Source of the DNA: Eubacterium sp.
GTDB lineage: Bacteria; Bacillota; Clostridia; Lachnospirales; Lachnospiraceae
Length of the DNA stretch: 57,297 bases
NCBI GenBank assembly: GCA_021769425.1
Contig: JAETSX010000040.1
Span: 1 to 57,297, forward strand
Direction of reading: 5' to 3'
This document shows, in pieces, positions 5,314 to 57,165 of this stretch (the first letter of the stretch is position 1; each line of letters opens with the position of its first letter). A program made the translations under genes and the position numbers. Under the pieces are notes generated by a model. The model saw only the letters and a program-made list of their open reading frames with translations, was not told the origin of the DNA and ran no database searches.

Positions 5314-5350
5314 TTGCATTTATTATTATCTTTTCCCGAATTTTCCTTTT

Positions 5351-5530
5351 TATTCCTGTTCCTGAACCATATTTTTCACAGACAGCCCTTTCTAAATCAT
5401 ATTTTCTGCAGGGGCCTGTCCTATTATTCCTGTTCCTGAAGCATATTTTTCACAGACAGCCCTTTCTGAATCATATTTTCTGCAGGAGCCTGTCCTATTA
5501 TTCCTGTTCCTGGATGATATTTTTTACCAC
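5351..5530. repeat. 74-bp tandem repeat matching the 3' end of the GntR gene
   Basis: Two nearly identical 74-bp units (5351-5424 and 5425-5498) sit directly downstream of the GntR stop. A third, partial match (5499 to about 5525) is the last codons of the gene itself. Read on the minus strand, each copy would encode the same end, QEQE then TAA, as the gene (VKNMLQEQE versus VKNIIQEQE). The period is not a multiple of three, so the copies are not in frame with the gene and lie after its stop. The first unit also carries an internal TAG. Confidence 0.8.
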
Positions 5531-25126: not shown

Positions 25127-25200
25127 TTCATAAAGTACAGCCCGCGCCCTTTATGCCCTTGCGCAATCCTGTCTCTGCTGTTATCATAGAGATCAGATTG

Positions 25201-25287
25201 CAGTCATTTCATATATAGAAATCAGATCGCAGTCATTTCATATATAGAAATCAGATCGCAGTCATTTCATATATAGAAATCAGATCG
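25201..25287 (+). repeat. 29-bp tandem repeat upstream of proC
   Basis: Three 29-bp units starting at 25201, 25230 and 25259, each like CAGTCATTTCATATATAGAA, followed by a degenerate fourth from 25288. They end about 15 bases before the proC ribosome site, so the proC leader or promoter includes them. Confidence 0.85.
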
Positions 25288-25317
25288 CAATTATTTCAAA
25301 TCAGGGAGGTACAGACT

Positions 25318-33952: not shown

Positions 33953-35542
33953 TTATTTCTTCTTTACAGTTACTTTAAATATCGCTACTTTACCTTTCTT
34001 AGTTACTACAGTAATATCTGCCTTACCAGCTTTCTTTCCTTTTACAACACCTTTCTTGGTTACAGTTGCTACTTTCTTATTAGATGATGTACAGGAGGTA
34101 ATGGAATCTCCTTTTCCTTTTAAAGTAATCTTAAGGGTCTTTCCAACTTTTACAGTTCCTTTTGTCTTGGAAAGGCTAGCTTTTCCTTCGGATACAGTTA
34201 CTACACATTTTGCTGTCTTCTTTTCAGCTTTTACAGTGATAGTTGCTACACCCGTACCTTTAGCAGTTACAACACCATCTTTTACAGTTGCTACTTTCTT
34301 ATTGGAAGTAGACCATTTCAAGGTGCTTGTAGCTTTCTTCGGGCTTAAAGTTGCCTGTAATGCAAGCGTTTCGCCTTTCTTCATGCTTGCAGTTTTCTTT
34401 AATGTAACTTTTGTTGCTTTTTTTGCTTTTTTAACTACTTCTACCTTTACAGTTGCTTTCTTGCCATCTGCTGTTGCTGTAATCGTAGCTTTTCCTGTTT
34501 TGCCTTTCTTAGTAGAAACTACACCCTTGCTGTTAACAGATGCAACGCTGGATTTACTGGACTTCCATGTAACTTTATTATTTGTAGCGTTTTTCGGTGC
34601 AACAGATGCTCCGATTGTAACCTTCTGGCCTGCTACTATGTAAACTGTTGACTTTCTGCTAAGCGTTACTTTGCTTACCCGAACTACGGTTGGCGTTGGT
34701 GTTGCTGTAGTCTCTGTTACAGTAACCTTACAGGTTGCCTTCTTAGACTTATCAACCTGGCTTGTTGCCGTAATAGTAGCTTCACCTTTTGCAACTGCTG
34801 TAACCGTTCCGTCTGCCGCTACTGTTGCTATTGTTGCAGCGCTTGTGGACCAATCTACCTTTGTATTAGCATTGCCTTTTACGGTTGCTGTAAGCTTCTC
34901 TGTCTTACCTTTTTCAATAGAAGTAGAAGTCTTATTCAAACTTACTGTTATCTCTTCTGTTTTGCCACCGTCAGTATTATCTTCTACCGTTACTGTATGT
35001 GTTGCTTTGCCTTGCTTTCCATTGCTGAATGTTACACTTGCTGTTACAATCGCAGTACCTTTAGCTGTACCTTTTACTGTTACTTCGTTTCCATTTGCCT
35101 TTATTGTTGCATTCTTATCCACAGACCATGTTACCGCTGACATTCCGGCTGCTTTTGCACTACTATTGTATGTTTTAGCAGTAGCTTCCGGGTTATTGGT
35201 ATTTGAACCATCGCCCGGCTTATTGGTATCTGAGCCATCGCCCGGCTTATTGGTATCTGAGCCATCGCCCGGCTTATTGGTATCTGAGCCATCGCCCGGC
35301 TTATTGGTATCTGAGCCGTCATCTCCTGCTTGGGAATCTGTTAACTCTGCCTTCAGAGTTATAGTCTCTCCTACCTTAACTTTTGTTGAACCACTGATTT
35401 TAATGGTTCCATCTTTCGCTTCCGCTGCCTGTACAAATGCCCCATCCACAAAAACAGTGGTTACGCATACACAGAAAGCCAGAAACATTGCAAGAAACTT
35501 TTTCAAGCTTCCTTTTTGGGTTTTCACCTGTAATTCTGTCAT
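33953..35542 (-). CDS. secreted multi-Ig-like (Big_2) surface protein
   Basis: 529 residues. A signal peptide (1 to about 39, cleaved near FVQA-AEAK) is followed by five Big_2-type Ig modules, each recognisable by WSTS or WKSS and then V-A-T-V or ASV and a G-x-A-x-I-T pattern (about 43-190, 195-285, 290-370, 372-455 and 456-529). The first module has a 45-residue insertion of nine-residue repeats, DGSDTNKPG, after AELTDS. The mature protein is very rich in Lys, Thr and Ala. There is no LPXTG, S-layer or transmembrane anchor, so retention may rely on charge. AAAGGAGG before the ATG. A strong promoter and palindromic sites lie upstream. Confidence 0.85.
   Translation of the reverse strand: MTELQVKTQKGSLKKFLAMFLAFCVCVTTVFVDGAFVQAAEAKDGTIKISGSTKVKVGETITLKAELTDSQAGDDGSDTNKPGDGSDTNKPGDGSDTNKPGDGSDTNKPGDGSNTNNPEATAKTYNSSAKAAGMSAVTWSVDKNATIKANGNEVTVKGTAKGTAIVTASVTFSNGKQGKATHTVTVEDNTDGGKTEEITVSLNKTSTSIEKGKTEKLTATVKGNANTKVDWSTSAATIATVAADGTVTAVAKGEATITATSQVDKSKKATCKVTVTETTATPTPTVVRVSKVTLSRKSTVYIVAGQKVTIGASVAPKNATNNKVTWKSSKSSVASVNSKGVVSTKKGKTGKATITATADGKKATVKVEVVKKAKKATKVTLKKTASMKKGETLALQATLSPKKATSTLKWSTSNKKVATVKDGVVTAKGTGVATITVKAEKKTAKCVVTVSEGKASLSKTKGTVKVGKTLKITLKGKGDSITSCTSSNKKVATVTKKGVVKGKKAGKADITVVTKKGKVAIFKVTVKKK
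35186..35320 (-). repeat. 27-bp tandem repeat coding for DGSDTNKPG
   Basis: Five 27-bp units; four encode DGSDTNKPG and the last DGSNTNNPE. The units are nearly identical at DNA level, so the copy number could change by slippage or recombination without breaking the frame. They encode residues 75-119 of the Ig-domain protein. Confidence 0.9.
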
Positions 35543-43862: not shown

Positions 43863-43903
43863 ATTACTAATCCTCGCTTGTATATCATGTCTTAAGATAT
43901 TAA

Positions 43904-43983
43904 CCATAACCACTTCATGATATGATATGGTCACCGATGCGCACTTCGGCGCATATAATATCTTACAATATTATACCATAACC
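43904..43983 (-). promoter_or_regulatory. extended -10 promoter with repeated GGTTATGG
   Basis: On the minus strand TGGTATAAT (43970-43978) is an ideal extended -10 with no clear -35 box. GGTTATGG occurs twice, at 43976-43983 (just upstream of the -10) and 43904-43911 (in the leader), 72 bp apart. A small ATGCGC/GCGCAT hairpin lies between. A weak -35 with repeats is consistent with an activator, possibly autoregulation, but that is inference. Confidence 0.4.
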
Positions 43984-55961: not shown

Positions 55962-56765
55962 TTATCTTCGATAGATAGACGGCTCTACATATTGAAACTT
56001 CAACCCTTTCCTGTCAACAGCTTCCGTTGTCCCCACAAACAGATATCCTCCCGGCTCCAGGAAGTCATAGACTCTGGAAAGAAGCTGACGCTTGGTGGCC
56101 TCGTCAAAATAAATCATTACATTCCTCATGAAAACCACATGAAATTTCTTATGGAAAGGAAATTTATTCATCAGATTAAACTGCCGAAAAATCACTTCGC
56201 CTCTTAATTCCTTTGTGACCTGATATTCCAGATCATTCACCTTTTTAAAGTAACGCTTCTTCCAGCTTTCAGGCAAAGGCTCTATCTGCTCCTTCAAATA
56301 TTTCCCCCGCTGGGCCTTTTCCAACACTTTAGTGGAAATATCTGTGGCAAGCACCCTGGTATCCCAACGGCTGGGTTCCGGCCCAAAATAGTCTCTCAGC
56401 ACCATGGCAATGGTATATGGCTCTTCTCCTGTGGATGATGCGGCCGACCAAATCCTTACGTCCCTGGTGGCTGCCTCTTTCACCTTAATCTGCGGAAGTA
56501 TCACCTTCTTCATATAATCCAGATGTTCAAATTCCCTCATAAAATATGTATGGTTGGTGGTCAGCACATTAATCAGGTTCCGCGCTTCCTCTCCTTTGGG
56601 ATTATTCTCTACTTTGGTCATATACTCATCATATCCGCTGTAGCCATTCCGCAAAAGATAATTTTCCATCCTCCCGTTCACCAGAATTTGCTTTCCGCTG
56701 AGATCAATTCCATACTTTTGCTTTACATAAACTGCGATCCGACGAAATTCCTGTTCCGTAATCAT
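55962..56765 (-). CDS. cheR: chemoreceptor methyltransferase CheR
   Basis: 267-residue enzyme that methylates glutamates on chemoreceptors with S-adenosylmethionine. The N-terminal helical domain is followed by TNHTYFMREFEHLDYMKKVI and the SAM pocket RIWSAASSTGEEPYTIAMVL, then ARNVMIYFD-like FMRNVMIYFDEATKR and LEPGGYLFVGTTEAV. It is the first gene of the operon. Its ATG is at the end of a tandem-repeat leader and has only GGGGG as a ribosome site, which suggests weak or regulated initiation. Confidence 0.96.
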   Translation of the reverse strand: MITEQEFRRIAVYVKQKYGIDLSGKQILVNGRMENYLLRNGYSGYDEYMTKVENNPKGEEARNLINVLTTNHTYFMREFEHLDYMKKVILPQIKVKEAATRDVRIWSAASSTGEEPYTIAMVLRDYFGPEPSRWDTRVLATDISTKVLEKAQRGKYLKEQIEPLPESWKKRYFKKVNDLEYQVTKELRGEVIFRQFNLMNKFPFHKKFHVVFMRNVMIYFDEATKRQLLSRVYDFLEPGGYLFVGTTEAVDRKGLKFQYVEPSIYRR

Positions 56766-56783
56766 AGTAAACCCCCATCTTGC

Positions 56784-56843
56784 TCAATCTTCCGTCCGGC
56801 GGGCCGCATGGCCATCCTTACTATGGAAGTCGGGGACTTTCAT
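56784..56843 (-). CDS. leader mini-ORF 4
   Basis: Nineteen codons, beginning MKVPDFHSKDGHAARR and ending TED, stop at 56784, 18 bases before the cheR ATG. The start lies in the 5' arm of the unit hairpin. The sequence CATAGTAA inside it (minus strand, 56818-56825) is complementary to both its own start and the cheR start. Translation is hypothetical. Confidence 0.35.
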   Translation of the reverse strand: MKVPDFHSKDGHAARRTED

Positions 56844-56861
56844 AGTAAATTCCCATCATAC

Positions 56862-56921
56862 TCAACCTGCTGTTTGGCGGGCCGCATGGCCATCCTTACT
56901 ATGGAAGTCGGGGACTTTCAT
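56862..56921 (-). CDS. leader mini-ORF 3
   Basis: Nineteen codons reading MKVPDFHSKDGHAARQTAG, then stop, in the third repeat unit, with a purine-rich GATGG upstream. Nearly identical to mini-ORF 2. Translation is hypothetical. Confidence 0.35.
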   Translation of the reverse strand: MKVPDFHSKDGHAARQTAG

Positions 56922-56939
56922 AGTAAATTTCCATCATAC

Positions 56940-56999
56940 TCAACCTGCTGTTTGGCGGGCCGCATGGCCATCCTTACTATGGAAGTCGGGGACTTTCAT
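56940..56999 (-). CDS. leader mini-ORF 2
   Basis: Nineteen codons with the same peptide as mini-ORF 3. Its ATG overlaps the stop of mini-ORF 1 (ATGA), which would permit re-initiation. Translation is hypothetical. Confidence 0.35.
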   Translation of the reverse strand: MKVPDFHSKDGHAARQTAG

Positions 57000-57076
57000 A
57001 GTAAACTCCCATCTTGCTCAGCCTGTCGTGCAACGGGCCGCATGGCCATCCTACTATGGAAGCCAAGGGCTTTCAT
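56996..57076 (-). CDS. leader mini-ORF 1
   Basis: First short frame after the promoter, with AGGGGT upstream. A one-base loss in this unit shifts the frame, so the product has 26 residues (beginning MKALGFHSRMAMRPVA) and stops in the ATGA of mini-ORF 2. Translation is hypothetical. Confidence 0.35.
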   Translation of the reverse strand: MKALGFHSRMAMRPVARQAEQDGSLL

Positions 57077-57136
57077 AGTAACTTACCCCTATCACATAAA
57101 CTTAAACTTCTATCAGATATTTATTCCATATTATCT

Positions 57137-57165
57137 ATGGTACTATATTCGCCTCTATTTGTCAA
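57137..57165 (-). promoter_or_regulatory. probable sigma-A promoter of the che operon
   Basis: On the minus strand TTGACA (57160-57165), 17-base spacer, then TACCAT (57137-57142). It would start transcription about 55 bases before mini-ORF 1, giving a leader of some 370 bases before cheR. No sigma-D motif was found between it and cheR. I see nothing in 57166-57297. Confidence 0.6.

Follow-up and report, generated by a model that had tools for sequence, protein, structure and literature searches.

A dispersed two-hairpin repeat inserted at the start codon of cheR in a Eubacterium sp. genome

The window, i.e. the whole stretch of 57,297 nucleotides of Eubacterium sp. DNA that was analysed, contains an array of four tandem repeat units directly in front of the chemotaxis gene cheR. 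This array is almost certainly one copy of a dispersed repeat that was inserted here. The account that we favour, with a probability of about 0.88, is that a two-hairpin repeat of 76-78 bp, which is dispersed and specific to the genus, was inserted once and then multiplied in tandem. The repeat very probably enters sites like TTACTATGAAA, and its target at cheR was the sequence TTACTATGA over the start codon. TRF placed the array at 56762-57081 with a period of 78 bp, 4.1 copies, 89% matches and 0% indels, and a 32-nt piece of the repeat unit occurs three times in the window, with none expected from 100 shuffles. Both TRF and the sequence agree with the first-pass annotation in that four units of 77-78 bp lie between a conserved promoter and cheR; the unit length of about 78 bp given there is correct for units 2 to 4 (78 bp), and unit 1 measures 77 bp. 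The genes downstream of the array encode domains of CheR, CheB, a response regulator, CheA, CheW and a chemoreceptor. The parts of the region are as follows:

57137-57165, minus strand: sigma-A-type promoter of the che operon, TTGACA-17-TACCAT (promoter scan; kept in the genus)
57086-57090, minus strand: displaced native ribosome-binding site, AGGGG (comparison with relatives)
57005-57081, minus strand: repeat unit 1, 77 bp (sequence, TRF, covariance model)
56927-57004, minus strand: repeat unit 2, 78 bp (sequence, TRF, shuffle count, covariance model)
56975-57004, minus strand: hairpin 1 of unit 2 as an example, TTACTATGAAAGTC-CCC-GACTTCCATAGTA (folding, family covariation)
56935-56966, minus strand: hairpin B of unit 2 as an example, alignment columns 39-70 (family-level pairs)
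56849-56926, minus strand: repeat unit 3, 78 bp (sequence, TRF, shuffle count, covariance model)
56771-56848, minus strand: repeat unit 4, 78 bp, second hairpin with some pairs lost (sequence, TRF, alignment, covariance model)
56797-56804, minus strand: segment inside mini-ORF 4, predicted partner of GGGGG (pairing probabilities about 0.95)
56772-56776, minus strand: GGGGG from the repeat, presumed cheR ribosome-binding site, 6 nt from the ATG (sequence)
56763-56770, minus strand: target sequence TTACTATG, its ATG at 56763-56765 being the cheR start codon (empty sites in the relatives G015 and G023)
55962-56765, minus strand: cheR, 267 aa (PF01739 and PF03705)

cheR was found in 26 of the 29 genomes of the genus at the limit used, and the repeat family stands before only one of these 26 genes, that of the window. 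In G015, whose CheR is 98% identical, the site reads GATAGGAGTAAG-TTACT-ATGATTACGG, which is an empty site of the form GTAAG-TTACT-ATG, and the window reads GATAGGGGTAAG-(311 bp)-TTACT-ATGATTACGG. As the nearest relative has the empty site, the array is therefore an insertion of 311 bp whose target includes the cheR start codon. G023, with a CheR that is 96% identical, reads TTATT-ATG and is also without the array. The idea that the array is a leader belonging to cheR is not supported by these comparisons: 25 of the 26 genus cheR genes do without it, the unit is present at 79 genomic places and empty sites exist. The search for the same leader before other cheR genes of the genus, which the first-pass annotation had suggested, recovered it before none other than that of the window (1/26).

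Differences between close relatives were also seen at other places. At C177:21341, no repeat is present in G023, one degenerate unit in G015 and four units in the genome of the window (G000); at C98:95030, the repeat is missing in G023 and present in the window's genome. The place C177:38318 is less clear, with an apparent remnant in G015 and a differing sequence in G023. A locus of G015 (L045) holds a single unit at TTACTATAAAA inside an open frame that extends 463 codons before and 504 codons after it (to the ends of the locus), and the 78 bp of this unit add 26 codons in frame. In G014 (L135), G021 (L137), G024 (L138) and G010 (L132), the stretch from the cheR promoter to the native Shine-Dalgarno (SD) sequence contains other repeat-like sequences. 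From these sequences, the cheR leader seems to tolerate insertions in several species. The family of the L137 repeat occupies 11 places in G021, 13 in G014, three each in G024 and G010, and two in G000.

The extent of the dispersal was first visible with the leader as BLAST query against the own genome, where 45 matches were obtained and 40 of the 113 candidates were scored. A covariance model built from an alignment of 74 units gave 155 matches in the same genome, 150 of which are listed (150 of 1822 candidates scored). At least 150 units are thus located at 79 places, 41 of them listed as single and 38 as arrays of two to six units (17 pairs, 13 triples, five arrays of four, two of five and one of six); the unit count is a lower bound, and some listed singles are longer arrays whose low-scoring units are not among the matches listed. 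BLAST over 61 genomes detected the unit in 14 of the 29 genus genomes (G009 among them only at E 8.9e-4) and in none of the 32 non-genus genomes, for which every first-look candidate was scored, and the repeat appears to be restricted to the genus. A draw of 250 genomes of the family matched the own genome and, weakly, G247 (33.6 bits); 18 candidates were scored per genome, so that negatives are weak in this draw, and only two genus members were included, one of which, G022, gave no match among its 18 scored candidates. The relatives of the cheR region that carry names are mostly labelled Lachnospiraceae. Phages, plasmids and IMG/VR gave no match to a query of one array or one 20-nt pattern.

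Judged by a simple rule for open frames, the genes next to the 79 places are both on the opposite strand in 22 cases, both on the same strand in 11, convergent in 12 and divergent in nine; six places lie inside an open frame and 19 were not judged. A start codon in register is carried by 44 of the 79 right ends, but only three of the open frames exceed 250 codons and real start-codon junctions were judged to exist at two places, cheR and a gene whose translation looks AraC-like. This second gene has no clean empty site, the DNA upstream of it in G000 being unlike that of the relatives. In G021, one unit with an altered outer stem (TTCTTGTG...CGCAAGAA; L299) stands directly before this AraC-like gene, at the very start codon where G000 has an array, and is perhaps an independent insertion. 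L292 (C228:5292) was dropped as a third start-codon junction, as the frame runs through a decayed second unit. Reading through that decayed unit seems to continue in frame into a gene looking like citrate synthase. A search for half-elements around a gene with nhmmer, which covered the window, five complete contigs and part of another (828,704 bases in all), found no pair of halves. Of its matches, 39 were full and 37 partial or weak. Four of the partial or weak ones were solitary, each on a different contig, and the three that were inspected (about 240-270 bases each) look like decayed copies.

The consequences for cheR depend on its promoter and ribosome-binding site. The promoter TTGACA-17-TACCAT (57165-57137) scores 10/12, and the scan found two sites against a shuffle mean of 2.2. 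Despite this chance-level scan the promoter is believable, because a TTGACA...TA(C/T)NAT site is kept in 25 of the 26 cheR leaders of the genus, that of the window included; it is this conservation that speaks for the good sigma-A promoter proposed earlier. Since the array stands between promoter and start codon, as had also been claimed, it should form a 5' UTR of roughly 364 nt, with a transcription start expected at about 57129. An AGGAG motif lies within 22 nt of the cheR start in 24 of 25 relatives, and in the window the motif reads AGGGG and stands 311 bp further off. cheR probably uses an SD supplied by the repeat, in the arrangement GGGGG-6 nt-ATG. Pieces of AGGAGG were counted at 52 internal junctions between units, with at least four bases in 26, three in eight and none in 18, so that the SD-like unit end is common but not fixed.

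Folding of the predicted mRNA was calculated from the putative start at about 57129. In these equilibrium estimates, which were made without ribosomes or folding during transcription, the cheR start codon is 97% unpaired. For the GGGGG upstream of cheR, pairing with 56797-56804 reaches about 95%; the TTACT next to the ATG is predicted to pair with 57083-57087, at the displaced native SD, with probabilities of 0.62-0.99. The pairing on which the first-pass annotation had built its model, between the cheR start (TTTACTATG) and the CATAGTAA of mini-ORF 4, has a probability below 0.0001 in the partition function; the CATAGTAA arm of unit 4 pairs with its own 5' arm (mean 0.99). Predicted exposure of the SD is 0.04 with two, three or four units and 0.38-0.40 with one or none. 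Unit 4 has lost pairs of its second hairpin, and the predicted pairing of GGGGG with 56797-56804 seems to be a chance product peculiar to this unit. Ribosomes translating mini-ORF 4 might in principle free the GGGGG, which would amount to a weak translational coupling.

Reading of the ORFs from the hairpin ATGs gave four mini-ORFs:

56996-57076, minus strand: mini-ORF 1, 26 codons, ATGA overlap with mini-ORF 2
56940-56999, minus strand: mini-ORF 2, 19 codons, peptide MKVPDFHSKDGHAARQTAG
56862-56921, minus strand: mini-ORF 3, 19 codons, peptide MKVPDFHSKDGHAARQTAG as in mini-ORF 2
56784-56843, minus strand: mini-ORF 4, 19 codons, peptide MKVPDFHSKDGHAARRTED, stop 18 nt before the cheR ATG

The lengths of 26, 19, 19 and 19 codons and the identity of two peptides are as previously described. 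The mini-ORF ending in ATGA exists as well, but it is the first and not the last, and it overlaps mini-ORF 2 and not cheR; similarly, the 3' hairpin arm CATAGTAA, which was attributed to all units, reads CATAGTAG in unit 1. Across the family, 114 of the 123 units parsed by script have a start codon at the hairpin position, and the ORF is 19 codons long in 76, 26 in 15, 21 in eight and of other length in 15. The 44 aligned 78-bp units have 38 different translations; the synonymous share of their changes is 0.43 against 0.265 expected, in units that are related and structured, and third positions showed no significant excess of variability (p = 0.144). The mini-ORF may be under some constraint in these sequences. 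Most likely, the mini-ORFs came along with the unit, whose end resembles an SD plus ATG, and were not built for cheR; their translation is possible, as is a modest effect on cheR in either direction.

A tandem mini-ORF leader that gates cheR through translation of mini-ORF 4 or through repeat number had been the original proposal, and it is consistent with the position of an array with mini-ORFs between promoter and start and with the roughly 95% pairing of the cheR GGGGG to a segment inside mini-ORF 4. It is nevertheless improbable, as the unit is found at 79 genomic places and before only 1 of 26 cheR genes, stands elsewhere in every orientation to its neighbours, and forms the named pairing with no measurable probability while the start codon is free. 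A selected role in CheR regulation, whether for repeat number or for translation of the mini-ORFs, is likewise highly doubtful.

The ends of the repeat bear on how it moves. The left edge is abrupt at TTACT (88-97% per base in 77 arrays), and outside it there is little preference except for a T just before the edge (47%). The right edge is TTTACT, after which ATGAAA is preferred (59-78% per base), in 54 arrays; the remaining 25 were set aside because they are followed by another hairpin, have an unrecognised tail or run to the end of the sequence. The left end reads ATACTATG or ATGCTATG at six of the 79 places (L219, L236, L253, L258, L259 and L293), and three of these (L236, L253 and L258) have CCATCC, the complement of the 3' side of the hairpin, before the left end; such ends look as if copied by fold-back. 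The terminal inverted repeats of a MITE are absent, the left end being a hairpin and the right end GGGAGTT, which are not inverted copies. With regard to a MITE-type target site duplication, sequences like TTACT stand on both sides, but they are much alike at most sites, so that the target is indistinguishable from the element end.

Some Y1 (IS200/IS605) transposases insert beside short fixed motifs such as TTAC, and a REP-type repeat mobilised by a RAYT or another Y1 transposase would agree with the palindrome, the dispersal and the TTAC flank. This remains an improbable source of the repeat, given that the high-copy genome G023 has no Y1 match, that G021 has one below the cut-off, and that GTAG is limited to 12 of the 74 units in the alignment, where it sits at the stem-GG junction on the 3' side of hairpin 1. 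The Y1 transposase (PF01797) was rejected as mobiliser: none of its five hits in G000 has the repeat in the fetched flanks, so that no Y1 transposase linked to the repeat was found at the own-genome loci, and G023 has none. IS110 was considered for a possible CT core and was rejected as well, PF01548 having two hits in G000, five in G023 and none in the high-copy genome G021 (83% complete). No mobilising enzyme was found among the Y1 and IS110 candidates of G000, G021 and G023.

The two-hairpin structure that was scored consists of hairpin 1 (columns 2-14 with 18-30) and hairpin B (columns 39-51 with 56-70), both chosen by hand. In this structure 90.8% of the alignment cells pair, and changes on both sides occur in 9 of 25 pairs; there are 64 such cells against 18.9 in shuffles, a value that none of 500 shuffles reached, and 26 of 500 attained the observed number of further pair types. 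Slid versions of the structure have two to six pairs with changes on both sides. RNAalifold, when unaided, did not recover hairpin 1 and returned 10 pairs, none with a compensatory change. Minimum-energy folds of single units contained hairpin 1 in three of five cases, and two folded otherwise. The whole leader folds better than shuffles (z -3.59), and hairpin B of unit 2 pairs otherwise in that fold. A structured RNA family that acts in cis or trans at all places, with dispersal being secondary, would explain the compensatory changes in the two hairpins but is very unlikely, as a DNA hairpin element would show equal compensatory changes, an Rfam search with E as high as 1 left the array without a match, and the orientations of the neighbours are mixed (22/11/12/9, with 6 in frame and 19 not judged). 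Three Rfam matches at E 0.25-0.38, below curated scores and all inside cheR, were taken as chance.

The multiplication of the inserted unit is reflected in the arrays themselves. Successive parsed units are spaced 76-78 in 49 of 52 cases, and the edit distance among 123 re-parsed units averages 6.16 within an array against 10.19 between arrays, with 0 of 300 permutations as low. This likeness within arrays and the one versus four units at C177:21341 favour local duplication over repeated insertion, and tandem growth in place is considered likely. The right flank lies at a mean distance of 2.27 from the arm of the last unit and 2.40 from that of the first (30 arrays; 2 of 2000 permutations), a weak likeness that only hints at slippage.

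An insertion with subsequent multiplication would have proceeded in four steps. Some mobilising activity would have placed a unit, with target-like sequence now on both sides; the empty site demonstrates the insertion as such. The TTTACTATG ends of the unit would then have undergone slippage or unequal exchange with one another, giving four units, a step proposed because arrays are homogenised and copy number differs at an orthologous place. Having been moved 311 bp away, the native SD would have lost its consensus by one changed base, presumably under relaxed selection. Finally, cheR would now most likely be started from the GGGGG-6 nt-ATG of the repeat. A selfish-looking repeat can take over the ribosome-binding site that heads a chemotaxis operon, and tandem repeats before one gene should not be equated with a dedicated regulatory leader until the rest of the genome has been viewed.

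Tentatively, the outer stem arm may be a copy of the preferred target TTACTATGAAA, in which case base pairing may choose the site and insertion may rebuild the target. On the same speculative reading, arrays would grow via the rebuilt target and a novel activity would move the repeat in these gut Lachnospiraceae relatives. Hints for such a self-targeting hairpin come from the right flank, which resembles the target beyond the shared TTTACT, from the L045 unit at TTACTATAAAA and from the six odd left ends. If a circular excised form existed, its junction outside arrays would read GGGAGTT-TACTATGAAAG. A high-copy, target-specific family with empty sites in close relatives is a good system for finding a new mobilising activity.

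Among known repeats, MIRUs (mycobacterial interspersed repetitive units) have a size of 77 bp and form tandem arrays. According to a 2025 review (PMC12548453), they seem mobile, insert at start codons and have an ORF coupled at -4 nt. The likeness to what is described there is that units are short and dispersed, that the ORF can end in an ATGA overlap and that a copy can sit on a start codon. A unit of about 77 bp with a short ORF in tandem is found here too. ATGA coupling at start codons is not found, with real start junctions at 2 of 79 places and the cheR copy uncoupled. The 77-bp units, whose ORF can extend over 26 codons to an ATGA, would fit MIRU coupling; with its last unit of 78 bp, the cheR copy falls outside this scheme. 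When compared by description and not by sequence, the present repeat differs from MIRUs in its two conserved hairpins and its TTACTATG-like target. MIRUs are the closest working analogue.

BOX of Streptococcus pneumoniae is dispersed and structured, has boxB absent or multiple and sometimes forms ORFs, according to PMC3049150. BOX is built of the modules A, B and C and is bounded by terminal inverted repeats, whereas the present repeat consists of like units plus TTTACT and has neither. With REP/RAYT systems as defined in PMC3733652, it shares the small extragenic palindromes and the high copy number, and no conserved GTAG or CGTC tag stands beside the palindrome in the 74 aligned units. In its workings it resembles a MIRU-type or BOX-type repeat, and it belongs to none of the families tested. 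Literature searches confined to an open-access library turned up no paper recognised as dealing with this repeat or with such a cheR leader.

The window holds three further tandem arrays, at 5350-5524 (period 74), 25186-25298 (period 29) and 35188-35317 (period 27). A second dispersed hairpin-repeat family (TATGGTATAATAT...) has a copy at 43883-43980 on the minus strand, at the start of a gene that resembles one for a LytTR-type response regulator; this copy is 83% similar to the tandem repeat that precedes cheR in G021.
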